Source: Candidatus Altimarinota bacterium (GTDB lineage: Bacteria; Patescibacteriota; Gracilibacteria; UBA1369; LOWO2-01-FULL-3). Taken from it: a DNA stretch of 16,384 nucleotides. How positions within the stretch are numbered: position 1 is the first letter of the stretch; every line of letters starts with the position of its first letter. The stretch is from positions 1-16,384 of the forward strand of contig JAOZTS010000013.1 of assembly GCA_029939035.1 (NCBI GenBank). The letters run 5' to 3'. A model generated the notes under the pieces. It searched no databases. It had not been told where the DNA came from and saw only the letters and a list, made by a program, of their open reading frames with translations. A program made the position numbers and the translations under genes. This document shows positions 311 to 10,690 of the stretch, one piece after another.

Positions 311-2053
311 CTATTTTCGCCCAAACATCTTCTCCAACTCACTCAAAGTCAAAGAAATCATAGTTGGTCGACCATGAGGACAAGTGTATGGCCTTTTCAA
401 CTTCGACATATCATCAATCAAAACCTGCATTTCCCCCAAGCTCAGCTTCTGTCCAAACTTGATAGCACTCCTGCATGACATGTAATTAATCATTTCTTCA
501 AATCCTTGCACACGCGAAGGCTTTGACTCGTTCAGAATATCATCGAGAACATCCTTTATCACGCCTTCAGCATCTTCTCCTGACAAAAACGAGGGAACAC
601 CGTTCACGACAAACGTATTGCCTCCAAAAGGCTCAATATCAAATCCTAATCCATCAAAAACCGCCTTATTTCTCTCGATCACATCAACTTCCTCTCCAGA
701 AAATTCAATCTGCAAAGGCACAAGCAATGGCTGCACAGCTTTTTGCTCATTTTCATACTGATCCATTAGCTGTTCATACCGAACTCTTTCGTGAGCCGCA
801 TGCTGATCTATCAACACAAGCCCAGTCTGATCCTGCGCAACTATATAAGATTCAGAAACCTGAGAGATGGCTTTCATAAGCCCATCCTCCTTCTCTTCAG
901 AAATCGAAGTTGGTAAAGAAGTTTGCTGGATTTGCTGAGTATCTCTCTCCGACAAAAAATCTTTGGTAAAAGAAATTGCATCCTTCACGTCACCTTTAGG
1001 TTCAGAAACAGGGAATTTATCAGACATATATCTCTTTGATTCAGTAATACCTAGCGGAGTCAGACTTTCCTTTTCCAAAGCCGCCTTCACACACGAATAC
1101 ATCGTCCTGATCATCCTCTGTTGATCTTCAAAACGCACTTCCAACTTCCGAGGATGCACATTCACATCAATCAAAGATGGATCAATCGTAATATTTATTA
1201 CAAAAACCGGTTTCTTGTTCTCCATCAACATCGAATGAAATGCAGATTTGATCGAATGCGCCAGCACAAAATGCTGGATATAACGACCATTAACAAAAAA
1301 GTACTGATGCTTCGTCGTACTTCTACTCAACGCCGGCTTTCCCACAAATCCCTCGATCTGAAAACTACTGCCCCCATAAAACACAGGAATCATAGCCTCC
1401 GAAGTCGCCACCCCAAACACATCCCTTACACGAGAAATCAAATCAGTAACAGGCGCCAAGTCAAAAACAACTTTCCCGTTATGCATCAATTTAAAAGCTA
1501 TAGAAGGATTCGCCAAAGCAATATTGTTCATAACAGAAGTTATCTGCCCAAACTCAGTACTCTCACGCTTCAGATATTTCTGACGAGCAGGAGTATTGAA
1601 AAATAAATCAAAAACCTCAATAACCGTGCCATCACTCATCCCAACTTCGCTTGCAGTCACGATTTCCCCTCCATTGCACTCAATCACCGCACCCCCAACA
1701 TCCCCAGCAGGTTTACTCTTTATCGTCATTTTCGAAACAGAGGCAATACTCGCCAACGCTTCACCTCGAAAACCCATAGTCTTTATCCTCCACAGATCCG
1801 CCTCCGAAGAAATTTTGCTCGTTGCATGCCTTTGCAAAGCCAATTCAAGATCGGCTCGCGACATCCCGCATCCATTATCAGTAATTTTCACAAAACCCTT
1901 CCCGCCATCCTTCACATCCACCAAAATCCGCGAAGAACCCGCATCAATACTATTTTCCACAAGCTCCTTCACCACCGAAGAAGGCCTCTCAACAACCTCA
2001 CCCGCAGCAATCTGGTTAACCAAATTTTCTGGAAGAATCTTTATTACAGACAT
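311..2053 (-). CDS. mutL: DNA mismatch repair protein MutL with endonuclease motif
   Basis: MutL is the GHKL ATPase that couples mismatch recognition by MutS to strand incision. Residues 1 to about 330 hold the ATPase and transducer domains: NQIAAGEVVERPSSVVKELV with ENSIDAG, then DNGCGM, then GFRGEALASI. A linker of roughly 60 residues leads to the C-terminal dimerisation and endonuclease domain. That domain has the full metal-binding motif DQHAAHERVRYE (about 416-427, matching DQHAx2Ex4E), then CRSAIKFGQ, CPHGRPT and a terminal FGRK. All conserved endonuclease-domain motifs are therefore present. The protein is 580 aa, normal for the family. I chose the ATG at 2053: it lies one base after the upstream gene's stop, is preceded by GAGAGA, and gives the usual MSVIKILPENL start. 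An in-frame TTG four codons earlier is less likely. It is the last gene of the mutS operon. Confidence 0.96.
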   Translation of the reverse strand: MSVIKILPENLVNQIAAGEVVERPSSVVKELVENSIDAGSSRILVDVKDGGKGFVKITDNGCGMSRADLELALQRHATSKISSEADLWRIKTMGFRGEALASIASVSKMTIKSKPAGDVGGAVIECNGGEIVTASEVGMSDGTVIEVFDLFFNTPARQKYLKRESTEFGQITSVMNNIALANPSIAFKLMHNGKVVFDLAPVTDLISRVRDVFGVATSEAMIPVFYGGSSFQIEGFVGKPALSRSTTKHQYFFVNGRYIQHFVLAHSIKSAFHSMLMENKKPVFVINITIDPSLIDVNVHPRKLEVRFEDQQRMIRTMYSCVKAALEKESLTPLGITESKRYMSDKFPVSEPKGDVKDAISFTKDFLSERDTQQIQQTSLPTSISEEKEDGLMKAISQVSESYIVAQDQTGLVLIDQHAAHERVRYEQLMDQYENEQKAVQPLLVPLQIEFSGEEVDVIERNKAVFDGLGFDIEPFGGNTFVVNGVPSFLSGEDAEGVIKDVLDDILNESKPSRVQGFEEMINYMSCRSAIKFGQKLSLGEMQVLIDDMSKLKRPYTCPHGRPTMISLTLSELEKMFGRK

Positions 2054-2054
2054 A

Positions 2055-3656
2055 CTATCTCTCAATATTTATATACCCCTTATCCTGATTGGTATCATCA
2101 TGGCGGTCTAATATAGCATCATCCTTATAAATGTTAAATAGAGTCGTACGCTTGGAGTAGTCTTCTAGCGTAGGGTAGCCGTTTAAAATAGTTACAGGGA
2201 AAGTATAAATAATGTAATTGTATGGAGTAATATGTAGTCCAAGCGCCATTCCTGAAGACAAAGCGTTCAGGTCGGTAATCAGTTTATTGTCGACAATAAA
2301 ATCTCCGAGGTTATGGAAAAGCAAACTTCCTTTGTAGGTTTCAAAAGGGACAACGTCTTCCAGTCCACGCCCGATAAAGATATCCACACCCTGTTTCGCC
2401 AAAGCACGTGTGAAATGTTTTCTATCTTCATCAACTTCACCTCCACCTTTGTATTCAAACAACACCACAACTTCATCCACATTTTCATCAATTTCCTTAA
2501 TCATGTCCAAATACTCTTTTTCCGCATCCTCATCCTCTATAAATTTACAGAAAACAATCTTCATATTGTTTTGCTCTTCGAGAGTACAAGCATTATCTAG
2601 ATGATCAAAAAGGTAGAAATCCGCACCCACCAAGAACCGATCCTCAGTCCCACGAATATCACGCAAAAGCTTGTTTGTAGTGTAATCCGCACTCTCATCA
2701 TAGTCTTGATCCCACTCCCAACTCGTCATAAATTCCAAAGTATTATCATCCGGCAAACTTCCAACTGCGAAAATACTCACGCCCTGGTATGGATCAACTT
2801 TCCCTTTCGAAAAAGAGAAATACAAATGACTCGTAGTCTCGTCTTCATGTTCTTCAATAAAGTCAGTCAAATTTGTATGTTTTTTCAATTCAGCTTCCAT
2901 GTATCCACGCGCCTCCATCAAACTAAGCAAAGTATAAATAGAAGAAGGGGAGTCCAACTCCAGATCAAAAATATTAGGATAATCGAAATTAGTTATAGTG
3001 GCATTAGACGCCTCATCATGGAAAAGCGCCGCTCCATCAATCACATAATGAGAAAAATCCACACTAGCCAGAACCAAAGCATCTGGGGGCAAATTCTCAT
3101 CCAAAAAAGTGCTCATTTTTTTCAGCTCACTGATCGGCGTATCCCATTTGAACAAAACCGGAACGATTTTTGCTTCAGGAAAATAATGTTTGATATAAGG
3201 AGAATGCGCAAAAATCGCATGTTCTTGAGGGAAAGCAGCATCGTTATAAACAGCTGCGCCTTCATCAACCATATCGTCAATGAGATCATCATCCAGTTCC
3301 AAATCGCCCTCAGTTGTAGAATAAACACACATCTCACACGTCTGCACATTGTCATTACCCTCTTCCAAACTCGACTCAAAATGATTAGGTCCCAAAATCA
3401 CAACAACTGAAGGGTTTTTGACCTCCGCCAAACCTTCATAAAACCTATTAGCAGTAAATTGCGTAATAGAATGATGTGGCAAAACTATTCCCATTGGTGC
3501 TGACTCAAATTCCAGAGGTTCCCCCTTGTCAAAAATATGTTCCCACATCGTGCCGTCACCTGGATAAAGCGATTCAACACGCACGGACTCCTTGCCGCAA
3601 CCAGCAAGTACGCCTGAAAATACCAACAAAATTAGTAACAAAAACAGTTTTTTCAT
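2055..3656 (-). CDS. Lipoprotein: MEMO-family domain fused to a degenerate CapA-like domain
   Basis: The protein has 533 aa. A lipoprotein signal peptide ends in the lipobox LAGC (Cys20), so it should be exported and lipid-anchored after LspA processing. Residues about 55-300 match the MEMO family (AmmeMemoRadiSam system protein B): LPHHS (His61/62), LGPNHF (His92), PQEHAIFAHSPY (143-154), IVPVL, and SVDFSHY (Asp200, His203). The cysteine ligand of human MEMO1 seems absent; the aligned stretch reads DSPSSIY (235-241). Residues about 325-480 resemble the C-terminal part of CapA-type metallophosphoesterases: QGVDIFIGRGLEDVVPFETY, then FHNLGDFIVD. The catalytic GHHPH of CapA is replaced by GRGLED, so this half is probably not an active phosphatase. 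The gene starts 5 nt after the upstream lipoprotein and ends next to mutL, indicating one operon. The MEMO call is firm; the CapA-like call is likely; the function is unknown. Confidence 0.8.
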   Translation of the reverse strand: MKKLFLLLILLVFSGVLAGCGKESVRVESLYPGDGTMWEHIFDKGEPLEFESAPMGIVLPHHSITQFTANRFYEGLAEVKNPSVVVILGPNHFESSLEEGNDNVQTCEMCVYSTTEGDLELDDDLIDDMVDEGAAVYNDAAFPQEHAIFAHSPYIKHYFPEAKIVPVLFKWDTPISELKKMSTFLDENLPPDALVLASVDFSHYVIDGAALFHDEASNATITNFDYPNIFDLELDSPSSIYTLLSLMEARGYMEAELKKHTNLTDFIEEHEDETTSHLYFSFSKGKVDPYQGVSIFAVGSLPDDNTLEFMTSWEWDQDYDESADYTTNKLLRDIRGTEDRFLVGADFYLFDHLDNACTLEEQNNMKIVFCKFIEDEDAEKEYLDMIKEIDENVDEVVVLFEYKGGGEVDEDRKHFTRALAKQGVDIFIGRGLEDVVPFETYKGSLLFHNLGDFIVDNKLITDLNALSSGMALGLHITPYNYIIYTFPVTILNGYPTLEDYSKRTTLFNIYKDDAILDRHDDTNQDKGYINIER

Positions 3657-3661
3657 AATTC

Positions 3662-4771
3662 TTATCTATAAAGTCTTCCACCCCATTCCACAACAGTGAA
3701 ACCTTCTCTTTCAGGGGTTACAAGTTTTTGCTCAGCCACCTCTACCTTTTCATCCAGTCCTTTGTAATCGAAGAATACTCTGATTACAGAATCAGGCTCA
3801 GGCAATACAGTCAAAGGGGCATATTTATCAAAATCTTCTTGTGAAATAAATGTAATAAAGTAGTAAGGATCCTCAGAAAGAATAGGAACCCAGAACTCTT
3901 TGAAATCAGCAATTTCAATCTCATTCATACCAAGAACTGCCAATTTTTCATCAAAGAATTTCTCAACTCCATCACCCTCTACTACAAATCCTTCTTCCGG
4001 AGTCACAAAATCATAAGCATACCCTTCCCAGAACAGGTAAGGATAAACCCCTCCATCTCCAAAGTTGAAAATCTTGCTATCAGGCGTAGCCACAACATTC
4101 CATCCATCACTTAATTCAGGATCAGAAATAGAAATTCCTCCAGTTGGTTCAACATCTACAAAAACCTCCATTGTTTCTTCAGGATAAAGATAAACAACAG
4201 GTTTTCCTACTTCAGCAGTTGCTGGTGAGAAGAAAACAGTTATATATGCGCTACTTGTAGACCCATCATCGTAATAAGCTTTGAATTCGTAGTCGTTTGT
4301 TCCAAAAAACAAATTGTCCCAATCCATTTTTGCTCTATAAATGAAATTTGCATCACCGACTTTAAAATCTTGCAAAGTATAAACGTCAACTCTCGGCATA
4401 GAATTTCCCATATCGCCAGACGGAATAGTCGCTGTAACTACAATTTTCTTTGTGTTAGGAGAAACAACTCCTTCAAAAATCACAGGTTCTTCATGGAAAT
4501 CACTATCAGGATCTGGGCTTTCGATAGTAATGTAATTCGCTCCAGTATAAACCTCAGGTTCTTCTTCCTCTTCTTCAGGCTCTTCCTCTTCTTCCACAAC
4601 TTCTTCCTCTTCTTCTACAACTTCCTCCTCCTCGGCAACCTCTTCTTCAACTTCTCCTTCAGGTACAAAAACTTCTTCCTCGTCTTCACCACCAAAACTA
4701 AAATCAAGACTGCAGCCAGCTAAGGCAAAAACCAAAGCGAAACTCGCTAGTAAACTTAATAACTTTTTCAT
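3662..4771 (-). CDS. Lipoprotein with Glu-rich linker and 'KPVVYLYP' domain, unknown function
   Basis: The protein has 369 aa. Its signal peptide ends in the lipobox LAGC (Cys20). Residues 29-74 form a strongly acidic spacer of Glu with Val-Val and Pro interruptions. Residues about 78-182 look like a beta-rich Ig-like module (VIFEGVVSPNTKKIVVTATI ... YEFKAYYDDGSTSSAYITVF). From residue 190 a separate domain begins with KPVVYLYPEE and continues with DGWNVVATPDSKI and YPYLFWEG. From memory this domain recurs as an uncharacterised family in candidate-phylum genomes. There are no catalytic motifs I can name. The acidic spacer would hold the folded domains away from the membrane. The gene lies 50 nt after mutS and 5 nt before the MEMO-type lipoprotein. 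A promoter-like pair precedes it, so it may also be transcribed separately from mutS. Confidence 0.8.
   Translation of the reverse strand: MKKLLSLLASFALVFALAGCSLDFSFGGEDEEEVFVPEGEVEEEVAEEEEVVEEEEEVVEEEEEPEEEEEEPEVYTGANYITIESPDPDSDFHEEPVIFEGVVSPNTKKIVVTATIPSGDMGNSMPRVDVYTLQDFKVGDANFIYRAKMDWDNLFFGTNDYEFKAYYDDGSTSSAYITVFFSPATAEVGKPVVYLYPEETMEVFVDVEPTGGISISDPELSDGWNVVATPDSKIFNFGDGGVYPYLFWEGYAYDFVTPEEGFVVEGDGVEKFFDEKLAVLGMNEIEIADFKEFWVPILSEDPYYFITFISQEDFDKYAPLTVLPEPDSVIRVFFDYKGLDEKVEVAEQKLVTPEREGFTVVEWGGRLYR
4550..4687 (-). repeat. Glu-codon tract (purine-rich low-complexity DNA)
   Basis: This stretch encodes residues 29-74 of the acidic lipoprotein. The coding strand is almost pure GAA/GAG with short GTT/GTA and CCT/CCA interruptions, giving an irregular repeat of the form VVEEEEE. 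Mixed GAA and GAG codons show it is not a perfect microsatellite, but the long homopurine/homopyrimidine run could slip in replication and vary in length between strains. Confidence 0.75.
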
Positions 4772-4779
4772 ATTTAAAC

Positions 4780-4808
4780 ATTAGAAAATATCAACCGGAA
4801 TAATACAA
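4780..4808 (-). promoter_or_regulatory. Candidate sigma70-type promoter for the lipoprotein pair
   Basis: On the minus strand there is TTGTAT (4808-4803), a 17-nt spacer and TCTAAT (4785-4780). The -10 box differs from TATAAT at one position and the -35 box matches at four of six. It ends 8 nt before the ATG at 4771, which would give a leaderless or nearly leaderless mRNA. It lies in the 50-nt gap after mutS. Evidence is consensus and spacing only. Confidence 0.4.
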
Positions 4809-4821
4809 TAAAAGCCATTTA

Positions 4822-7314
4822 TTAGCCAGTTTTCTTCTTCATCTCATTCAGTTTTCGCAAAGCTTCAATTGGAGTCAAATTATTCACATCCACTTCGCTC
4901 AAATCTTTCAAAAGTTCACGATGAACTCGATTGTCTTCAAACATTTCTTCTTGATTAGGAGCCACTCGTTTTTTTGTAATCTTTTTCGATTCTAATTCAC
5001 TCAAAACTCCACGCGCCCGCCCCACAACATCCACCGGCAAACCAGCCAGCTTCGCGACCTCAATTCCATAACTCTTATCCACTCCGCCTTCAACAACTTT
5101 GTACAAAAACACAACACCCTCAGTCTCATTTTCCCGAACAGCAACACTCATATTTTTTGCATGATCCAACTTGTCCGCAAGCTCGATCAGTTCATGATAA
5201 TGAGTCGCAAATAGAGTTTTTGCCTTAATCTTGTCATGAATAAATTCCATAATAGCCCAGGCAATACTCACTCCATCATAAGTCGAAGTTCCACGCCCAA
5301 CTTCATCCAAAATTATCAAACTTTTCTCAGTAGCCTGATTCAAAATATAAGAAGCCTCCTGCATTTCCACCATAAAAGTACTATCACCAGCCACCAGATT
5401 GTCAGACGCCCCAACTCTGGTGAAAATTCGATCCACGACGCCAATCTTCGCCGACTGCGCAGGAACAAAACTCCCAATCTGAGCCATCAAAACACAAAGA
5501 GCAACCTGCCTCAAATAAGTAGACTTTCCACCCATATTCGGTCCAGTAATCAATAAAAACGACTGATCCGCATTCATTTCGCAATCATTCGGAACAAAAT
5601 CCGATCCCATTTTCTCAATAACTGGATGCCTACTGCCAATCACATTCAGTTCTCCATCCTCAGAAACTTCCGGCCTACAATACGCCCCTCTCTCAGCATT
5701 AAAAGCAAAACAACTAAACACATCCATCTCCGCAACAGCTTTCGCAGCCAACTGCAAAGCAACTAATTCTTTCACAACTTCCATCCGAACTTTATAGAAA
5801 AGTTCATATTCTAATTCCTTGATACGATCCTCAGCAGTCAAAACCTTTTCCTCGTATTCCTTCAACTCAGGGGTGATATACCGCTCAGCATTCACCAAAG
5901 TCTGCTTTCTCACGTAATCATCTGGCACATTCCCAGCACTCGCCTTGCTGACTTCAATATAGTATCCAAAAACTTTATTAAACTTCACTTTCAAAGTACT
6001 AATCCCAGTCCTCTTGCTCTCTCTCTCCTGCAAATCCTTGATAAATGTTTTCCCCTCAGTACTAATAGATCTCAAATCATCCAACTCAGAATTAAACCCA
6101 TCCCGAATCATCCCACCATCACGAACAGAAATCGGGCACTCATCATTTATAGCTTTACCGACCAGCTCAACAATAGTAGGAAACTCAGCCACACCAGCCC
6201 CGGTCAGTTCATTCAAACGCGGAATAACTTTCAGCGATTCCTTCATTGCAACCAGATCTCTCGCATTTCCAGTCCCCAAACTCAGCCGACTCAACAGCCT
6301 TTCAATATCATAAACCTTACCCAATTCCTCTCTCACAGACCTCATCAAACTCGAGTCTCCAACAAATTTATCAACCTCTTTCAGCCGAACATCAATCTCA
6401 GCCTTCTTCAACAATGGATGCAAAACCCAATTTCGAAGCAGCCGACCACCCATCGCCGTCACAGAATTGTCCATTGCCCAAACCAAACTTCCCTCCTTCG
6501 CTCCACGACTAGTTCGAAAGAGTTCCAAATTTCTAATACAAGCTTCATCCAACGGCATAAAATCAGCCACGCCATAATAGGAAATTCTCTGAATATGTTT
6601 CAAATCAGTCTTCTGCGTCTCCTTTAAATATTCATAAAGCATTCCCGCGGCCAAAGTGGCCTGTGGCCGACTCTCTAGCCCAAAAACACTCAAAGATTTT
6701 ACTTCAAAACTATCTTTCAACGACGTCTCAGCGTCTTTCATATAAGAATACGGAAATACATATCCCTGTTTCACACGAGCAGTAAGTTCCTCTTCACAAA
6801 TACATTCAGCAGCATCCACCCTCTGCATCTCATTTTCCAATTCACTAAACTTTTCAAACTCAGTAACACGAAAGTCACCAGTCGTCACATCCGCATACGC
6901 AAACCCAAACTTCGCACCATCCTCAACCACACACGCAACATAATTATTTGCATTTCGATCCAACAATCCTTCATCAAATGTGGTACCTGGAGTCACAACC
7001 CTAACAACTTCCCTCTCCACAATCCCTTTCCCAGTCGGCTCCGTGATCTGATCACACACAGCAACTTTCTTCCCTGCTCGAGTCAGCTTCGGCAAATACT
7101 GATTCACCGCATGAAAGGGGACACCACACATCGGTGCGCTATTTGCACCACCCTTACCACGAGTCGTCAAAGTAATCTGCAAAACTTCCGCCGCCTCCAC
7201 AGCATCCTCAAAAAACATCTCATAAAAATCACCCATCCGAAAAAGCAGAATACCATCACTGTATTTCTCCTTTAGTGCTTTGTATTGCGCCATCATCGGC
7301 GTAAGCTTGGTCAT
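4822..7314 (-). CDS. mutS: DNA mismatch repair protein MutS
   Basis: MutS binds mismatches and small loops and uses ATP to recruit MutL. The 830-aa protein has the usual length. The mismatch-binding Phe-x-Glu is in GDFYEMF (Phe30, Glu32). The connector, lever and clamp regions follow, for example KVKFNKVFGYYIEVSKA at 442-458. The ATPase has Walker A GPNMGGKST (591-599), the signature GASDNLVAGDSTF (635-647), Walker B LIILDE (666-671) and FATHYHEL (702-709). Near the C-terminus QEEMF (788-792) fits the beta-clamp-binding pentapeptide. The ATG at 7314 overlaps the TGA of the upstream 73-aa gene as ATGA, so the two are probably translationally coupled. The gene ends with tandem stops (TAATAA). 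It belongs to MutS1, not the MutS2 recombination family, because it has the Phe-x-Glu motif and no Smr domain. Confidence 0.97.
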   Translation of the reverse strand: MTKLTPMMAQYKALKEKYSDGILLFRMGDFYEMFFEDAVEAAEVLQITLTTRGKGGANSAPMCGVPFHAVNQYLPKLTRAGKKVAVCDQITEPTGKGIVEREVVRVVTPGTTFDEGLLDRNANNYVACVVEDGAKFGFAYADVTTGDFRVTEFEKFSELENEMQRVDAAECICEEELTARVKQGYVFPYSYMKDAETSLKDSFEVKSLSVFGLESRPQATLAAGMLYEYLKETQKTDLKHIQRISYYGVADFMPLDEACIRNLELFRTSRGAKEGSLVWAMDNSVTAMGGRLLRNWVLHPLLKKAEIDVRLKEVDKFVGDSSLMRSVREELGKVYDIERLLSRLSLGTGNARDLVAMKESLKVIPRLNELTGAGVAEFPTIVELVGKAINDECPISVRDGGMIRDGFNSELDDLRSISTEGKTFIKDLQERESKRTGISTLKVKFNKVFGYYIEVSKASAGNVPDDYVRKQTLVNAERYITPELKEYEEKVLTAEDRIKELEYELFYKVRMEVVKELVALQLAAKAVAEMDVFSCFAFNAERGAYCRPEVSEDGELNVIGSRHPVIEKMGSDFVPNDCEMNADQSFLLITGPNMGGKSTYLRQVALCVLMAQIGSFVPAQSAKIGVVDRIFTRVGASDNLVAGDSTFMVEMQEASYILNQATEKSLIILDEVGRGTSTYDGVSIAWAIMEFIHDKIKAKTLFATHYHELIELADKLDHAKNMSVAVRENETEGVVFLYKVVEGGVDKSYGIEVAKLAGLPVDVVGRARGVLSELESKKITKKRVAPNQEEMFEDNRVHRELLKDLSEVDVNNLTPIEALRKLNEMKKKTG

Positions 7315-7532
7315 TCTTTCTTTTTTATTATAAGTCTAGCACCCTTCAAAGCCTCCAGTTTTTTACGCAATTCCTCTGTCGGTCTACGCAAAGTTTTCGG
7401 TCCGGGAGGAAATGGTACAGGGGTTGTTGGAAAAATTTGCGGAGTAATAAGTTTAGGGCCACCCTCTTCCTGTTCATCTCCATCTTCTTCTCCCTCAAAA
7501 CGCTTGCCGCCAGGGATCTTAGTGATTTTCAT
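7311..7532 (-). CDS. Small proline-rich protein translationally coupled to MutS
   Basis: This is a 73-aa protein of unknown family. It has three parts: a short basic start (MKITKIPGGKRF), an acidic stretch (GEEDGDEQEEGG, 14-25), a proline-rich segment (about 31-46, with PTTPVPFPPGP), and a basic helix-like tail (RRPTEELRKKLEALKGARL, 49-67). There is no signal peptide or membrane segment, so it should be cytosolic and largely disordered. Its TGA overlaps the mutS ATG by 4 bp, and a promoter-like pair lies 25 nt upstream, which support it as a genuine first gene of the mutS operon. No antisense or alternative-frame gene explains this stretch. A role as a MutS partner or just a coupling leader is open. 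Confidence 0.65.
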   Translation of the reverse strand: MKITKIPGGKRFEGEEDGDEQEEGGPKLITPQIFPTTPVPFPPGPKTLRRPTEELRKKLEALKGARLIIKKKE

Positions 7533-7557
7533 ATTTCATAGTTAAAAGTGGACTCTA

Positions 7558-7585
7558 ATTCTATAGAAATCACAAAGAAGTGCAA
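7558..7585 (-). promoter_or_regulatory. Candidate promoter of the mutS operon
   Basis: On the minus strand there is TTGCAC (7585-7580), a 16-nt spacer and TAGAAT (7563-7558), 25 nt upstream of the 73-aa gene's ATG. It lies in the only gap (7533-7592) between the NIF3-insert-like gene and the mutS operon. No strong terminator hairpin is visible in the same gap. Confidence 0.45.
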
Positions 7586-7592
7586 ATATTTC

Positions 7593-7916
7593 CTATTCAT
7601 TTAATAATGGATAAATATCTATAGCAGGTTCCTCGTACGGGTGAGCCCTCTTCAGCTCATCAATAACAGTCTGCAACTTTCCGTAAGGACAAATAGTCTC
7701 AATCTTCTCCTCGTCCACATCTTCAACTTGGCCAGCTTTCCCCACAAAAGGTTTCGTTCCTTCTAGTCCGCGAAAACGCCCAGTTCCTTTAGTACTAAAA
7801 CTACAAAAATCATAGTTCCCAATATGCCCAGCTCCGCACTCACTCAAAACTTTCCTCACATCATCAGCGTGACTAGTCGGGACAAACACTGCAATTTTTA
7901 CGAATTTTAGTTTCAT
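7593..7916 (-). CDS. Stand-alone NIF3/YqfO insert-domain protein
   Basis: The protein has 107 aa. It matches the extra domain found inside NIF3/YqfO-type proteins, which has a CutA1-like ferredoxin fold: VKIAVFVPTSHADDVRKVL at the start, GAGHIGNYDFCSF (28-40), GTGRFRGLEGTKPFVGKAG (44-62), and the closing RAHPYEEPAIDIYPL (90-104). The rest of NIF3 is absent, and such short single-domain versions are known in many bacteria. The biochemical role is not established; metal or nucleotide binding and trimerisation are suggested for relatives. I chose the ATG at 7916 because it gives the canonical MKLKFVKIAVFVP start. A longer reading to 8009 only overlaps the end of dinB. It begins 19 nt after the dinB stop and may be read from dinB or from its own TATAAT. 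Confidence 0.85.
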   Translation of the reverse strand: MKLKFVKIAVFVPTSHADDVRKVLSECGAGHIGNYDFCSFSTKGTGRFRGLEGTKPFVGKAGQVEDVDEEKIETICPYGKLQTVIDELKRAHPYEEPAIDIYPLLNE

Positions 7917-7922
7917 GTCGCC

Positions 7923-7928
7923 ATTATA
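7923..7928 (-). promoter_or_regulatory. Perfect -10 box six bases before a start codon
   Basis: The minus strand reads TATAAT GGCGAC ATG in front of the NIF3-insert-like gene. A start about 7 nt downstream of the -10 would fall on the ATG itself, giving a leaderless mRNA. The -35 region (TTTTGG at 17-nt spacing) is poor, so this could be chance in AT-rich DNA. Confidence 0.35.
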
Positions 7929-7935
7929 CACAAAT

Positions 7936-9135
7936 TTAAACAGCCCCAAAACTCGCCCCATTCTCTCCATAAATCTTCCGTATCCCATCAATTGCCCCAA
8001 ACAATTCATCAGTAGTTCGACTACTCGGGAAAAGACTCATATTGTAATTGCGAACAAGCCCGGTCACTCCGACCCCCAGCAATCGCACAGCCCTCCCAGC
8101 ATCCAAATTCCTCAAAAGCAACTTCTTCACAATCGGCCAAAGCTCGCTGTCCGCCGACATTAGCCCACCAAAGTTTTTGTTAAAAGCAAAATCCTCAAAT
8201 CCATGTCTGCCCACCGATCCTTCTATCTTGTAACGAATCCGCACAAACACAGTCTTTGCTTTCATCTCATATCTCCGTAGTTTCTCAAAAACTATCGCAG
8301 ACAAAGCCTTCAAAATCTTCACGCACGCCTTCTTGTCAGTCAGTCCTCCATCATAAACCGTCCGCTCTTTCGAAATAGATTTTGGCAAAGAAGAAGCAGA
8401 AATCACTTCAGAATTATCAATGCCCAGACATTTTTTCCAAATCGGCACGCCCTGCACTCCAAACTTCTCCAGAATTTCCTCAAACTTCAATGCCGCCACA
8501 TCACCCACAAGCTTCAAACCATATCTTTCCAAAGCAGCTGCAGTTTTGGGCCCTATTCCAGGAATAGCCCGCACAGGCAACGGCGCCAAAAACGCTTGTT
8601 CTTTCCCAAAAGGAACAACAGTCAACTTATGAGGTTTATTCTGACTGGAGGCCGTCTTTGATACAGTCTTGTTACTCGAAAGGCCACACGATGCAGAAAT
8701 CCCAATTCGCTTATACACCTCCATCAAAATCCCACGAGCAATCTCCGAAACACTTTTTCCATACGCCTTATCGTAACCGGTAATATCCAAATATGCCTCA
8801 TCAATAGAAGCCATCTCAACATCAGGAGTAAACTTTGAAAAGATTTCATACATGCCCTGCGAGGCCCGCCTATATGCTTCGAAATTCCCCGGCACAATGA
8901 TTCCTTTAGGACACAAACGCGTTGCCTTAAACATCGGCATGCCAGTCTTTACACCGCACGCCTTCGCCTCATAACTCGCGGCCGAGACAATGCCCTTTGT
9001 CCCAGAAGGCCCGCCAACCAAAACCGGCTTGCCTCGCAACTTGGGATTTAATACTTGTTCTACAGAGGCAAAAAAAGCGTCTGCATCGATATGTAAGATG
9101 TGACGCCTTTCCCGGCGTATCGGTAATTTAAACAT
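7936..9135 (-). CDS. dinB: Y-family translesion DNA polymerase IV
   Basis: DinB copies past damaged template bases with low fidelity. The 399-aa protein has the palm motif HIDADAFFASVEQ (Asp17, catalytic metal ligand), the nucleotide-binding YEAKACGVKTGMP (55-67), the catalytic SIDEAYLD (110-117, Asp112 and Glu113), and GLSSNKTVSKTAS (151-163). A helix-hairpin-helix type thumb follows (IPGIGPKTAAALERYG, 191-206), then the little-finger domain. NMSLF (365-369) near the end fits the beta-clamp-binding motif, with Asn where Gln is usual, and is followed by a 30-residue tail. The ATG at 9135 lies 5 nt after the 66-aa gene, and lexA is the next gene upstream, so SOS control is likely. No copy of the lexA-type operator was found immediately upstream. 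Confidence 0.95.
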   Translation of the reverse strand: MFKLPIRRERRHILHIDADAFFASVEQVLNPKLRGKPVLVGGPSGTKGIVSAASYEAKACGVKTGMPMFKATRLCPKGIIVPGNFEAYRRASQGMYEIFSKFTPDVEMASIDEAYLDITGYDKAYGKSVSEIARGILMEVYKRIGISASCGLSSNKTVSKTASSQNKPHKLTVVPFGKEQAFLAPLPVRAIPGIGPKTAAALERYGLKLVGDVAALKFEEILEKFGVQGVPIWKKCLGIDNSEVISASSLPKSISKERTVYDGGLTDKKACVKILKALSAIVFEKLRRYEMKAKTVFVRIRYKIEGSVGRHGFEDFAFNKNFGGLMSADSELWPIVKKLLLRNLDAGRAVRLLGVGVTGLVRNYNMSLFPSSRTTDELFGAIDGIRKIYGENGASFGAV

Positions 9136-9140
9136 AATCT

Positions 9141-9341
9141 TTAAAACATAACAGCTTGCCCCTCCAATTTGTATTTACCTACTTTCAGATGTCGTCTCCA
9201 AGATTTGATTCTTTGCCACAAGCTTCTTTTTTTCACGTTGATAGCTTTTCTCCACCCGTGAGCAGGATTGATTTTACTTTTCCTCAGTCTTATGGCTGAT
9301 CTTTTTTTGATGTTTGTATCGACAGTTAGTGTGATAAACAT
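9141..9341 (-). CDS. Small basic protein between lexA and dinB, unknown
   Basis: This is a 66-aa protein rich in Lys and Arg with three Trp residues in a repeated pattern (HGWRKA, SLWQRI, SWRRHL). There is no signal peptide, membrane segment or cysteine. The high positive charge suggests nucleic-acid or clamp binding, but this is inference only. I do not recognise the family. It ends 5 nt before dinB, so it is almost certainly cotranscribed with it, and it follows lexA after a 110-nt gap. There is no Shine-Dalgarno sequence; TATATT directly abuts the ATG. The absence of another open reading of similar quality on either strand and the tight fit to dinB favour a real gene. Confidence 0.6.
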   Translation of the reverse strand: MFITLTVDTNIKKRSAIRLRKSKINPAHGWRKAINVKKRSLWQRIKSWRRHLKVGKYKLEGQAVMF

Positions 9342-9451
9342 AATATATTTGGTTAATTAATTAGTTGAGTAAATAACGCTGACTTAAAAGCGCCAGCTCA
9401 AGCTGTTTTTTAGTGATTAAAATTCTACAAACTCCAACTGCCCGTTGTTTC
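9342..9451. other. lexA-orf66 intergenic region
   Basis: This 110-nt AT-rich gap holds a small inverted repeat CAGCTCAAGCTG (9394-9405), flanked on the + strand by a T6 run (9406-9411) and on the other side by AAAA. It could be a weak minus-strand terminator for lexA (CAGC-TTGA-GCTG stem, A/T flanks) but the stem is only 4 bp. TAATTAATTA (9354-9363) is a 10-bp palindrome near the 66-aa gene start. I see no clean -35/-10 pair and no copy of the lexA-type operator. Confidence 0.3.
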
Positions 9452-10078
9452 TTAGGAGTACCGCCTTATCAAGGACGTAACTGTGCCTTGTACAACCAAT
9501 TCTTCAATTGGATGTATGTCCTCATATTCCTTGTTCTCTGCTTTTAAATAAATCTTTCCTCCCTGCTTTACTAGTCTTTTCAAAGTATTTTCATTATCAA
9601 TCAAAGCCACAACAATGTCTCCGTCCTTCGCTTCTTTCTTTGTATTCACAAGAACCAAATCTCCCTCGTAAATCCCTGCGTCGATCATACTTCTTCCTGT
9701 TACTTCCAACATAAAGAAATCTTTATTATTCTTCGCAAGATCCTCTCCGACACTCATCCACCCATTCACATATTCATCAGTCACAACAGGACCACCGGCA
9801 GGAATCGAACCAAGAATTGGCAGACTCACTCCGCCCCCGATCAATTTCTGCTTTACGCTCTCCAACAATTTGATCCCTCTAGGAGTGTCATCTTTTTCGA
9901 GGTAACCTTTTTCTTGCAAAGCTTTCAAATGTTTCAAGATGCTGTTGTCAGAACTAACCTGAAATTTCTCTTTCATCTCTTTGATAGTAGGAGATTTTCC
10001 ATAAGTAGATTGGTATTCCTCAATGAATTTCAATACTGCTTCCTGTTTGTCTGTTAAATATTCGTTCATATTTCTCAT
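9452..10078 (-). CDS. lexA: SOS-response repressor LexA
   Basis: LexA represses DNA-damage genes until RecA filaments trigger self-cleavage. The 208-aa protein has an N-terminal winged helix-turn-helix (LTDKQEAVLKFIEEYQ ... SPTIKEMKEKF ... ILKHLKALQEKGYL, with RGIKL closing the wing). The C-terminal S24 peptidase domain has cleavage site Ala94-Gly95 in GSIPAGGP, catalytic Ser130 in VTGRSMIDAGIYEGDLV, and Lys167 in NTLKRLVKQGGK. Every residue needed for autoproteolysis is present. The first ATG is at 10078; a second in-frame ATG at 10069 (MNEYLTDKQ) is preceded by GAGAA and is nearer the usual family start, so either may be used. It has its own promoter with two operator-like palindromes and is followed by the 66-aa gene and dinB. 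Confidence 0.96.
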   Translation of the reverse strand: MRNMNEYLTDKQEAVLKFIEEYQSTYGKSPTIKEMKEKFQVSSDNSILKHLKALQEKGYLEKDDTPRGIKLLESVKQKLIGGGVSLPILGSIPAGGPVVTDEYVNGWMSVGEDLAKNNKDFFMLEVTGRSMIDAGIYEGDLVLVNTKKEAKDGDIVVALIDNENTLKRLVKQGGKIYLKAENKEYEDIHPIEELVVQGTVTSLIRRYS

Positions 10079-10080
10079 TA

Positions 10081-10098
10081 GGTAAGTATAAGCTCACC
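10081..10098. promoter_or_regulatory. Putative LexA operator 2 (start-site proximal)
   Basis: On the + strand this reads GGTAAG-TATAAG-CTCACC, an 18-bp inverted repeat with one mismatch between arms. It covers the expected transcription start (about 7 nt past the -10) and ends 2 nt before the first lexA ATG. It shares 11 of 12 arm bases with operator 1, while the spacers differ. Confidence 0.6.
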
Positions 10099-10101
10099 CC
10101 C

Positions 10102-10130
10102 AATATAGGTGAGGAAACTCTCACCGTCAA
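10102..10130 (-). promoter_or_regulatory. lexA promoter
   Basis: On the minus strand there is TTGACG (10130-10125), a 17-nt spacer and TATATT (10107-10102). The -35 matches the consensus at five of six positions and the -10 at five of six, with optimal spacing. The transcript would start near 10095, giving a short leader of about 17-26 nt. Confidence 0.7.
10108..10125. promoter_or_regulatory. Putative LexA operator 1 (in the promoter spacer)
   Basis: On the + strand this is GGTGAG-GAAACT-CTCACC, a perfect 6-bp inverted repeat with a 6-nt spacer. It fills the gap between the -35 and -10 boxes exactly, where bound repressor would block RNA polymerase. Its centre is 27 bp from that of operator 2. 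It does not match the E. coli CTGT-N8-ACAG or B. subtilis GAAC-N4-GTTC boxes. Confidence 0.65.
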
Positions 10131-10156
10131 GTTAAAAGAACTTTACAGACTGAAAA

Positions 10157-10690
10157 CTACATTTCTACCTCGAAGATGTTCTCCATTTTAAGCCCCCAAA
10201 TGGCTGCAAGGGGTATCAAGAAAATGTTCTTTCTATGTCGATTATAGTATCGAACCATCTTATTATAATTCTTTGATTTTTGCTCAATAGTGATCTCTAA
10301 ATCATCAATTCTCTTCCTTAATTCCAGAAAATTAGTATCTTTCGACAACTCCTGAACGCTTTTCCCAAGAGCAATAACCTTATCAATCACTTTACTCACA
10401 TCATATTCATATTCAATTTTTTTCCCACTCGCACCGTAAGATTTTGCAGCGCGCTTCCGTTTATCGATCATCTCCTGCAACAAGCTCTCCTGGTCACCAG
10501 AATACTCGCGCACAGTTTCAATCAAATTCGGCAACATATCGTGTCGCTTCCGCAACGATTCATCCACAACTTCCCATTCTTCCCGAATCCGTTTCCGCAG
10601 CCCACGAAGATGCCTTACCCCCACGATCACCCACAAAACAAGTATCAGAACGACCGCACTACCTATAATGAGAATATTTATTAGTTCCAT
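10157..10690 (-). CDS. LemA-family membrane protein
   Basis: The protein has 177 aa. One N-terminal membrane segment (about 5-25, ILIIGSAVVLILVLWVIVGV) is followed by the LemA helical bundle: EEWEVVDESLRKRHDMLPNL and IETVREYSG (38-65, the family signature with alternate Arg/Asp and a PNL turn), then a long helical region, KNYNKMVRYYNRH (140-152), and a final FLIPLAAIWGLKMENIFEVE. The topology is expected to have a short outside N-terminus and a helical domain on the other side. LemA proteins have no firm biochemical role; they are often envelope-associated. I chose the ATG at 10690, 5 nt after the glycosyltransferase stop, because the longer reading adds 17 residues that overlap that gene. 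It is the last gene of the ftsW-murG cluster. Confidence 0.85.
   Translation of the reverse strand: MELINILIIGSAVVLILVLWVIVGVRHLRGLRKRIREEWEVVDESLRKRHDMLPNLIETVREYSGDQESLLQEMIDKRKRAAKSYGASGKKIEYEYDVSKVIDKVIALGKSVQELSKDTNFLELRKRIDDLEITIEQKSKNYNKMVRYYNRHRKNIFLIPLAAIWGLKMENIFEVEM

Follow-up and report, generated by a model that had tools for sequence, protein, structure and literature searches.

Does the lexA gene of this Patescibacteria genome lie under operators bound by its own product, and if so, how far do such operators reach through the genome and the lineage? LexA, which keeps DNA-repair genes repressed until damage occurs, is a textbook example of a conserved regulator with different DNA targets in different bacterial groups. 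The window, i.e., the whole stretch of 16,384 nucleotides that was analysed, is contig 55 of a 1.1-Mb genome in 133 contigs and carries two palindromes directly upstream of lexA. Here, we propose, on the basis of sequence comparison, that these palindromes very probably serve as operators (SOS boxes) for the product of this adjacent lexA. Our findings indicate that a small-genome lineage keeps its damage response; in one order, the putative operator is clear-cut, the promoter frame around it hardly varies, and one family shows a joint shift of recognition helix and operator.

Two palindromes in the lexA promoter

The locus comprises the following features.

9452..10078, minus strand: lexA, 208 aa (TIGR00498, PF01726, PF00717, alignment with solved LexA chains)
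10081..10098, minus strand: LexA box 2 (predicted), a one-mismatch GGTGAG-N6-CTTACC covering the site where transcription is expected to begin
10102..10107, minus strand: -10 element TATATT of the lexA promoter, with TA...T at the equivalent place in orthologues
10108..10125, minus strand: LexA box 1 (predicted), GGTGAG-N6-CTCACC, perfect, filling the -35/-10 gap and conserved in orthologous lexA and recA promoters
10125..10130, minus strand: -35 element of lexA, TTGACG, whose final G doubles as the first base of box 1

The initial annotation had described two GGTGAG-N6-CTCACC inverted repeats, one perfect and one with a single mismatch, and both were located. On the plus strand, the perfect repeat reads GGTGAGGAAACTCTCACC (10108-10125), and GGTAAGTATAAGCTCACC (10081-10098) has the same arms with one mismatch; on the minus strand, upstream of lexA, the two read GGTGAGAGTTTCCTCACC (10125-10108) and GGTGAGCTTATACTTACC (10098-10081). 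The minus-strand order is TTGACG, box 1, TATATT, GGG, box 2 and then the lexA ATG at 10078. The candidate operator, therefore, overlaps the core promoter with box 1 exactly between TTGACG and TATATT, and the suggestion that one repeat fills the spacer while the other covers the expected start agrees with this frame. From base composition, 0.0003 perfect matches are expected per window and 0.0001 matches with at most one mismatch per 150 bp; two boxes within 45 bp are, thus, not a chance event. A chance origin was also rejected in view of the 60-genome set (own genome included), in which a search with at most one mismatch returned 349 sites versus 60 for a reversed control pattern. With three mismatches allowed, the window contains 3 matches versus a shuffle mean of 3.09, i.e., chance level, and only the two strong sites carry weight. 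An Rfam scan of the window gave no matches at the gathering score.

The two boxes had also been said to share their arms but not their spacers. The first part holds; the second needs refinement because the spacers are not free but prefer alternating pyrimidines and purines. A strict YRYRYR spacer is present in 32 of 96 recA and lexA boxes compared to ∼1.5 expected at random (1 in 64), these related sequences not being independent of each other.

The downstream gene had been taken for a fully equipped LexA, as the protein confirms. Its full-length match to TIGR00498 scores 181.2 bits versus a curated cut-off of 110.95, it contains an N-terminal winged helix-turn-helix domain (PF01726) and an S24 peptidase domain (PF00717), and its cleavage residues, an Ala94-Gly95 site and a Ser130/Lys167 dyad, agree in alignment with those of solved LexA chains. 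Alignment with relatives suggests that the real start of lexA may be the ATG at 10069. In the window, mutL, mutS, dinB and lexA lie close together on the minus strand (311-10078) and form a DNA-repair neighbourhood; the gap between lexA and dinB contains no box, its best candidate having 5 mismatches. The minus strand also carries an ORF (2055-3656) that combines Memo-like (PF01875) and PGA_cap (PF09587) domains.

We suggest that a LexA dimer on box 1 would keep RNA polymerase off the promoter and that a second dimer on box 2 would cover the lexA start site, thereby tightening autoregulation. After DNA damage, RecA-stimulated self-cleavage at Ala94-Gly95 by Ser130/Lys167 would free the promoters. 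Autoregulation of lexA would be tighter than control of recA, with a second box at lexA and mostly one at recA.

The box across the order and among known LexA operators

If the palindrome is a LexA box, it would be expected before other SOS genes and before lexA orthologues, as the initial annotation had proposed to check, and both expectations are borne out. In the genome of the window, a search with at most one mismatch returned four sites versus none for the reversed control: the two lexA boxes, a perfect box before recA (C101:6140) and a perfect box (C30:4208) followed after 80 bp by the gene of a 286-aa protein whose Cys/His pattern is HNH-like. At two mismatches, there were 21 sites versus 10 for the control and, thus, about half of the weak sites are noise. 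No radA turned up in the assembly, which is incomplete; the best match (E 5e-9) was recA.

Among the 60 genomes, 56 provided one recA locus each, and four (G019, G029, G041 and G051) were left out for want of a usable recA start. Three of the 56 loci were left uncounted because the N-terminus was not found by pattern; two of these (G057 and G045) have a perfect box and the third has a two-mismatch site. A box with at most one mismatch precedes recA in 50 of the 53 readable loci of the order (47 perfect, three with one mismatch); one further locus has a two-mismatch site and two have none, one of which has only 86 bp of upstream DNA. For lexA, the set comprised 52 distinct homologs whose LexA helix is of the SDN type, including one (G071) that belongs to a different order of the class. 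Of these genes, 43 have a box with one mismatch or none within 200 bp, and four more (L007, L008, L036 and L052) have it further up, 226 to 306 bp from the HMM match. The remaining five comprise three genes with two-mismatch sites only, one with three-mismatch sites only and one locus cut by a contig end. The double arrangement is common: two sites with at most two mismatches are spaced 21 to 28 bp, start to start, at 33 of the 52 genes, and are 91 bp apart at one.

The flanks of the box hardly vary. TTGAC immediately precedes the box, or is shifted by one base, in 50/50 recA boxes and in 44/46 lexA boxes with flanks, and TA...T follows directly in 49/50 and 43/46, respectively. The promoter frame TTGAC-box-TA...T is, therefore, nearly invariant in recA and lexA.

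We determined the taxonomic range by searching for the full cassette of frame and box, allowing two mismatches, in comparison with a reversed control pattern. In the phylum sample, all 12 genomes of the order had the cassette, as did one of the 274 genomes outside it (control: three genomes outside the order and one inside). In the class sample, 33 of the order's 34 genomes had it versus 3 of 158 genomes elsewhere, two of the three being of family f28 (control: two genomes outside and one inside); the only genome of the order without it, G054, has boxes of the f15 type described below. Its occurrence is, thus, restricted to a single order plus one nearby family. The exact cassette had no match in viral contigs. 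One sequence titled Nitrospirota bacterium (L134, JAUVQE010000009.1) encodes a LexA 85% identical to that of the window and has the lexA boxes of G001; this title looks wrong.

The class also has lineages with in-frame TGA codons in lexA (68 codons in seven genes); for 40 of the 68, the alignment column has a consensus residue, which is Gly in 32 cases. Absconditabacteria are among the CPR bacteria with alternate coding. According to PMC11452946, such bacteria also include Gracilibacteria. On this basis, the order is probably Peregrinibacteria-like, within Patescibacteria and close to Gracilibacteria.

In E. coli, LexA boxes have the form CTGT-N8-ACAG, two of them lie at lexA, and recA and dinD are among the targets. 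The system described here is similar in its LexA family, its putative palindromic promoter operators, their number at lexA, and its predicted recA and dinD targets. It differs in the operator sequence, in the recognition helix, which is SSDNSILKHLKAL in the window LexA and RSPNAAEEHLKAL in E. coli, and in that the box here exactly fills the -35/-10 gap.

A possibility to be taken seriously, although we hold it for the less probable case, is that the mechanism is as proposed but that the motif was already reported in 2017 in a comparative genomics study of the Patescibacteria DNA damage network. This study, by Sanchez-Osuna (doi 10.1111/1462-2920.13826), reportedly treats the SOS response of the superphylum and, thus, shares superphylum and pathway with our analysis. 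Yet, with the box limited to one order and a nearby family, work on the scale of the superphylum could have arrived at other motifs. Moreover, an excerpt of PMC7739468 cites the 2017 study, together with two others, for LexA binding direct repeats, unlike the palindrome described here, and the LexA motif lists in the excerpts of PMC8565304 and PMC7739468 name other sequences. Among the papers listed in searches of open-licence literature, a scope outside which the 2017 study lies, we recognized none that describes GGTGAG-N6-CTCACC for LexA.

The operators given in the PMC8565304 excerpts, i.e., TTAC-N3-GTAA, GGTT-N10-AACC, GTTC-N7-GTTC, GGA-N5-TCC and CTAA-N5-TTAG, are likewise lineage-specific SOS-repressor operators, and none of them occurs in the window lexA promoter. 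More generally, the motif had been said to match no known LexA box, and in agreement with this, none of eight known LexA-box patterns is present in 10040-10260. These patterns covered the E. coli, Bacillus, alpha-proteobacterial, Geobacter, Bdellovibrio, Leptospira and Bacteroidetes types; the alpha-proteobacterial, Geobacter, Bdellovibrio and Bacteroidetes patterns were those given in PMC8565304.

Predicted targets beyond lexA and recA

To define further targets, we used 41 sites, i.e., 40 stretches from 12 genomes, with the known lexA and recA sites left out, and one site of the own genome. The 12 genomes are 10 of the own family, G047 and G058, the latter contributing 2 of its 17 sites. Target genes were ORFs of at least 70 aa beginning within 260 bp of a site or crossing it, and these were grouped by BLAST; where both sides of a site had an ORF, the target was picked by judgement. 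Group names come from one scanned member each, except for DinD (both members) and the HNH-like group (three members). The HNH-like family accounts for 15 sites, radA for seven, Bro-N proteins for five, RhuM-type proteins for three and DinD for two. One site each was assigned to an AntA protein, a Y-family polymerase (G047), a PIF1-type helicase, a cytosine methylase, a 158-aa unknown protein and a 424-aa ORF (G018:C7) toward which the cassette points; three sites are unassigned.

Both box-linked DinD proteins pass the NCBIfam cut-off. uvrA and imuB were not recognized among the ORFs beside the 41 sites. Among the translesion polymerase genes encountered, the Y-family polymerase of G047 has a box and the window dinB has none. 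radA, found above cut-off in 46 of 60 genomes, was examined at 30 loci, of which 29 were readable. A box was present at 16 of these, all in the own family (16/20 versus 0/9 outside); one of the 13 loci without a box has only 22 bp of upstream DNA. In several genomes, phage-type antirepressor (Bro-N, RhuM, AntA) or DinD-like genes lie directly behind boxes (e.g., L171, L176, L179, L180 and L182).

The largest group of targets is a family that we name HNH-like, an SOS-linked family of unknown function. One member, L001:560-1420, corresponds to C30:3276-4124 of the own genome (alignment A1). The family has invariant Cys/His positions at its C-terminus (nine aligned members) and no Pfam match at E 0.001 (three members scanned). 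Searches against Pfam and NCBIfam (nine members) and PDB sequences with E up to 10 gave weak, inconsistent matches only and, thus, the label rests on the conserved Cys/His pattern. The 13E12 HNH repeat proteins of mycobacteria are under LexA control. Like them, the family described here is multi-copy, has an HNH-like end and has some members with predicted SOS control; set beside 13E12, the three scanned members are without a Pfam match at the threshold above.

Of the 60 genomes, 46 contain the HNH-like family, and the highest number of matches in a single genome is 40 (G035). Considering the best locus from each of 30 genomes, a box with at most one mismatch lies within 330 bp in 23 and is absent in seven; the profile used for the search was built from box-linked members and, thus, inflates this share. 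In expanded genomes, copies far exceed sites (40 copies versus 4 sites in G035; 22 copies versus 8 sites in G026) and, therefore, most HNH-like copies in these genomes cannot have a box.

The box and the LexA recognition helix

Several observations link the box to the DNA-binding helix of LexA. First, the 90 distinct LexA homologs compared across order and class differ by helix: a box within 200 bp was present for 43/52 with an SDN-type helix versus 0/38 with other helices. For the narrower DNS class (42/50 versus 1/40), Fisher's test gave p 2.4e-16; this test ignores phylogeny, and the link is in part shared ancestry. Second, four LexA paralogs with a TSHSTAQFH-type helix, encoded in genomes of the same order (L035, L040, L041 and L058), have no box at their own promoters. 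Third, G071 of family f28, which lies outside the order, combines the helix NSDNSVLKHLKAL with a one-mismatch cassette upstream of lexA as well as of recA.

Fourth, family f15, two genomes inside the order (G043 and G054), has the LexA helix KSDGF[I/V]VHCIKSL, and neither genome has a perfect GGTGAG box. In three of their four lexA and recA promoters (lexA: L043, L061; recA: L115, L124), TTGAC is directly followed by T[G/A]TGAG-N6-CTCA[C/T]A; in the fourth, lexA of G043, the second arm is CGCATA. A search of both genomes for TTGACTRTGAG-N6-CTCAYATA with at most two mismatches returned four matches, which are lexA and recA of each, and none for the reversed control. Helix and candidate operator have, thus, moved together. 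On this comparison of sequences, we regard the f15 helix and cassette as a putative natural altered-specificity pair; this shift makes the change in specificity testable with few residues and bases.

These observations also bear on an alternative, namely that some other dimeric repressor uses the palindrome and controls lexA and recA incidentally. In its favour, phage-type antirepressor genes (Bro-N, RhuM, AntA) follow some of the boxes. However, the box follows LexA's own helix, the changed box of f15 is present at lexA and recA alone, a Y-family polymerase and dinD are among the targets together with lexA and recA, and the paralogs with the TSHSTAQFH-type helix are without it; we, therefore, consider control by another repressor very improbable. 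That the inverted repeats act in RNA as hairpins of an attenuator or terminator is scarcely credible: perfect inverted repeats could fold, but box 1 lies upstream of the expected start, between -35 and -10, and would, therefore, not be transcribed from this promoter; judged by TTGAC, this position holds for 44 of 46 lexA and 50 of 50 recA boxes. Orthologous promoters, SOS targets and the co-variation of helix and box instead argue for autoregulation by LexA as a dimeric repressor, as originally proposed.

Altogether, these findings can be joined in a broader reading to which we give an even chance, namely that a Patescibacteria order may have its own, undescribed LexA operator in the fixed cassette TTGAC-GGTGAG-N6-CTCACC-TATAMT, with lexA, recA, radA, dinD, phage-type antirepressors and part of the expanded HNH-like family as targets, and that one family shifted helix and operator to TRTGAG-N6-CTCAYA at lexA and recA. 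We rate this joint reading no higher because most HNH-like copies in the most expanded genomes cannot have a box.

Two minor observations concern LexA proteins with other helices. Despite its changed helix and its changed lexA and recA boxes, G043 has 13 one-mismatch GGTGAG-N6-CTCACC sites, none perfect, versus 2 for the control; some of these may mean something outside the proposed account. In two genomes of one genus of another order of the class (L146 and L148), LexA has the helix RSKNAVAKVVNAL, and both loci have GGACG-N2-CGTCC at -32 upstream of lexA, which may be another LexA box or may reflect mere relatedness.
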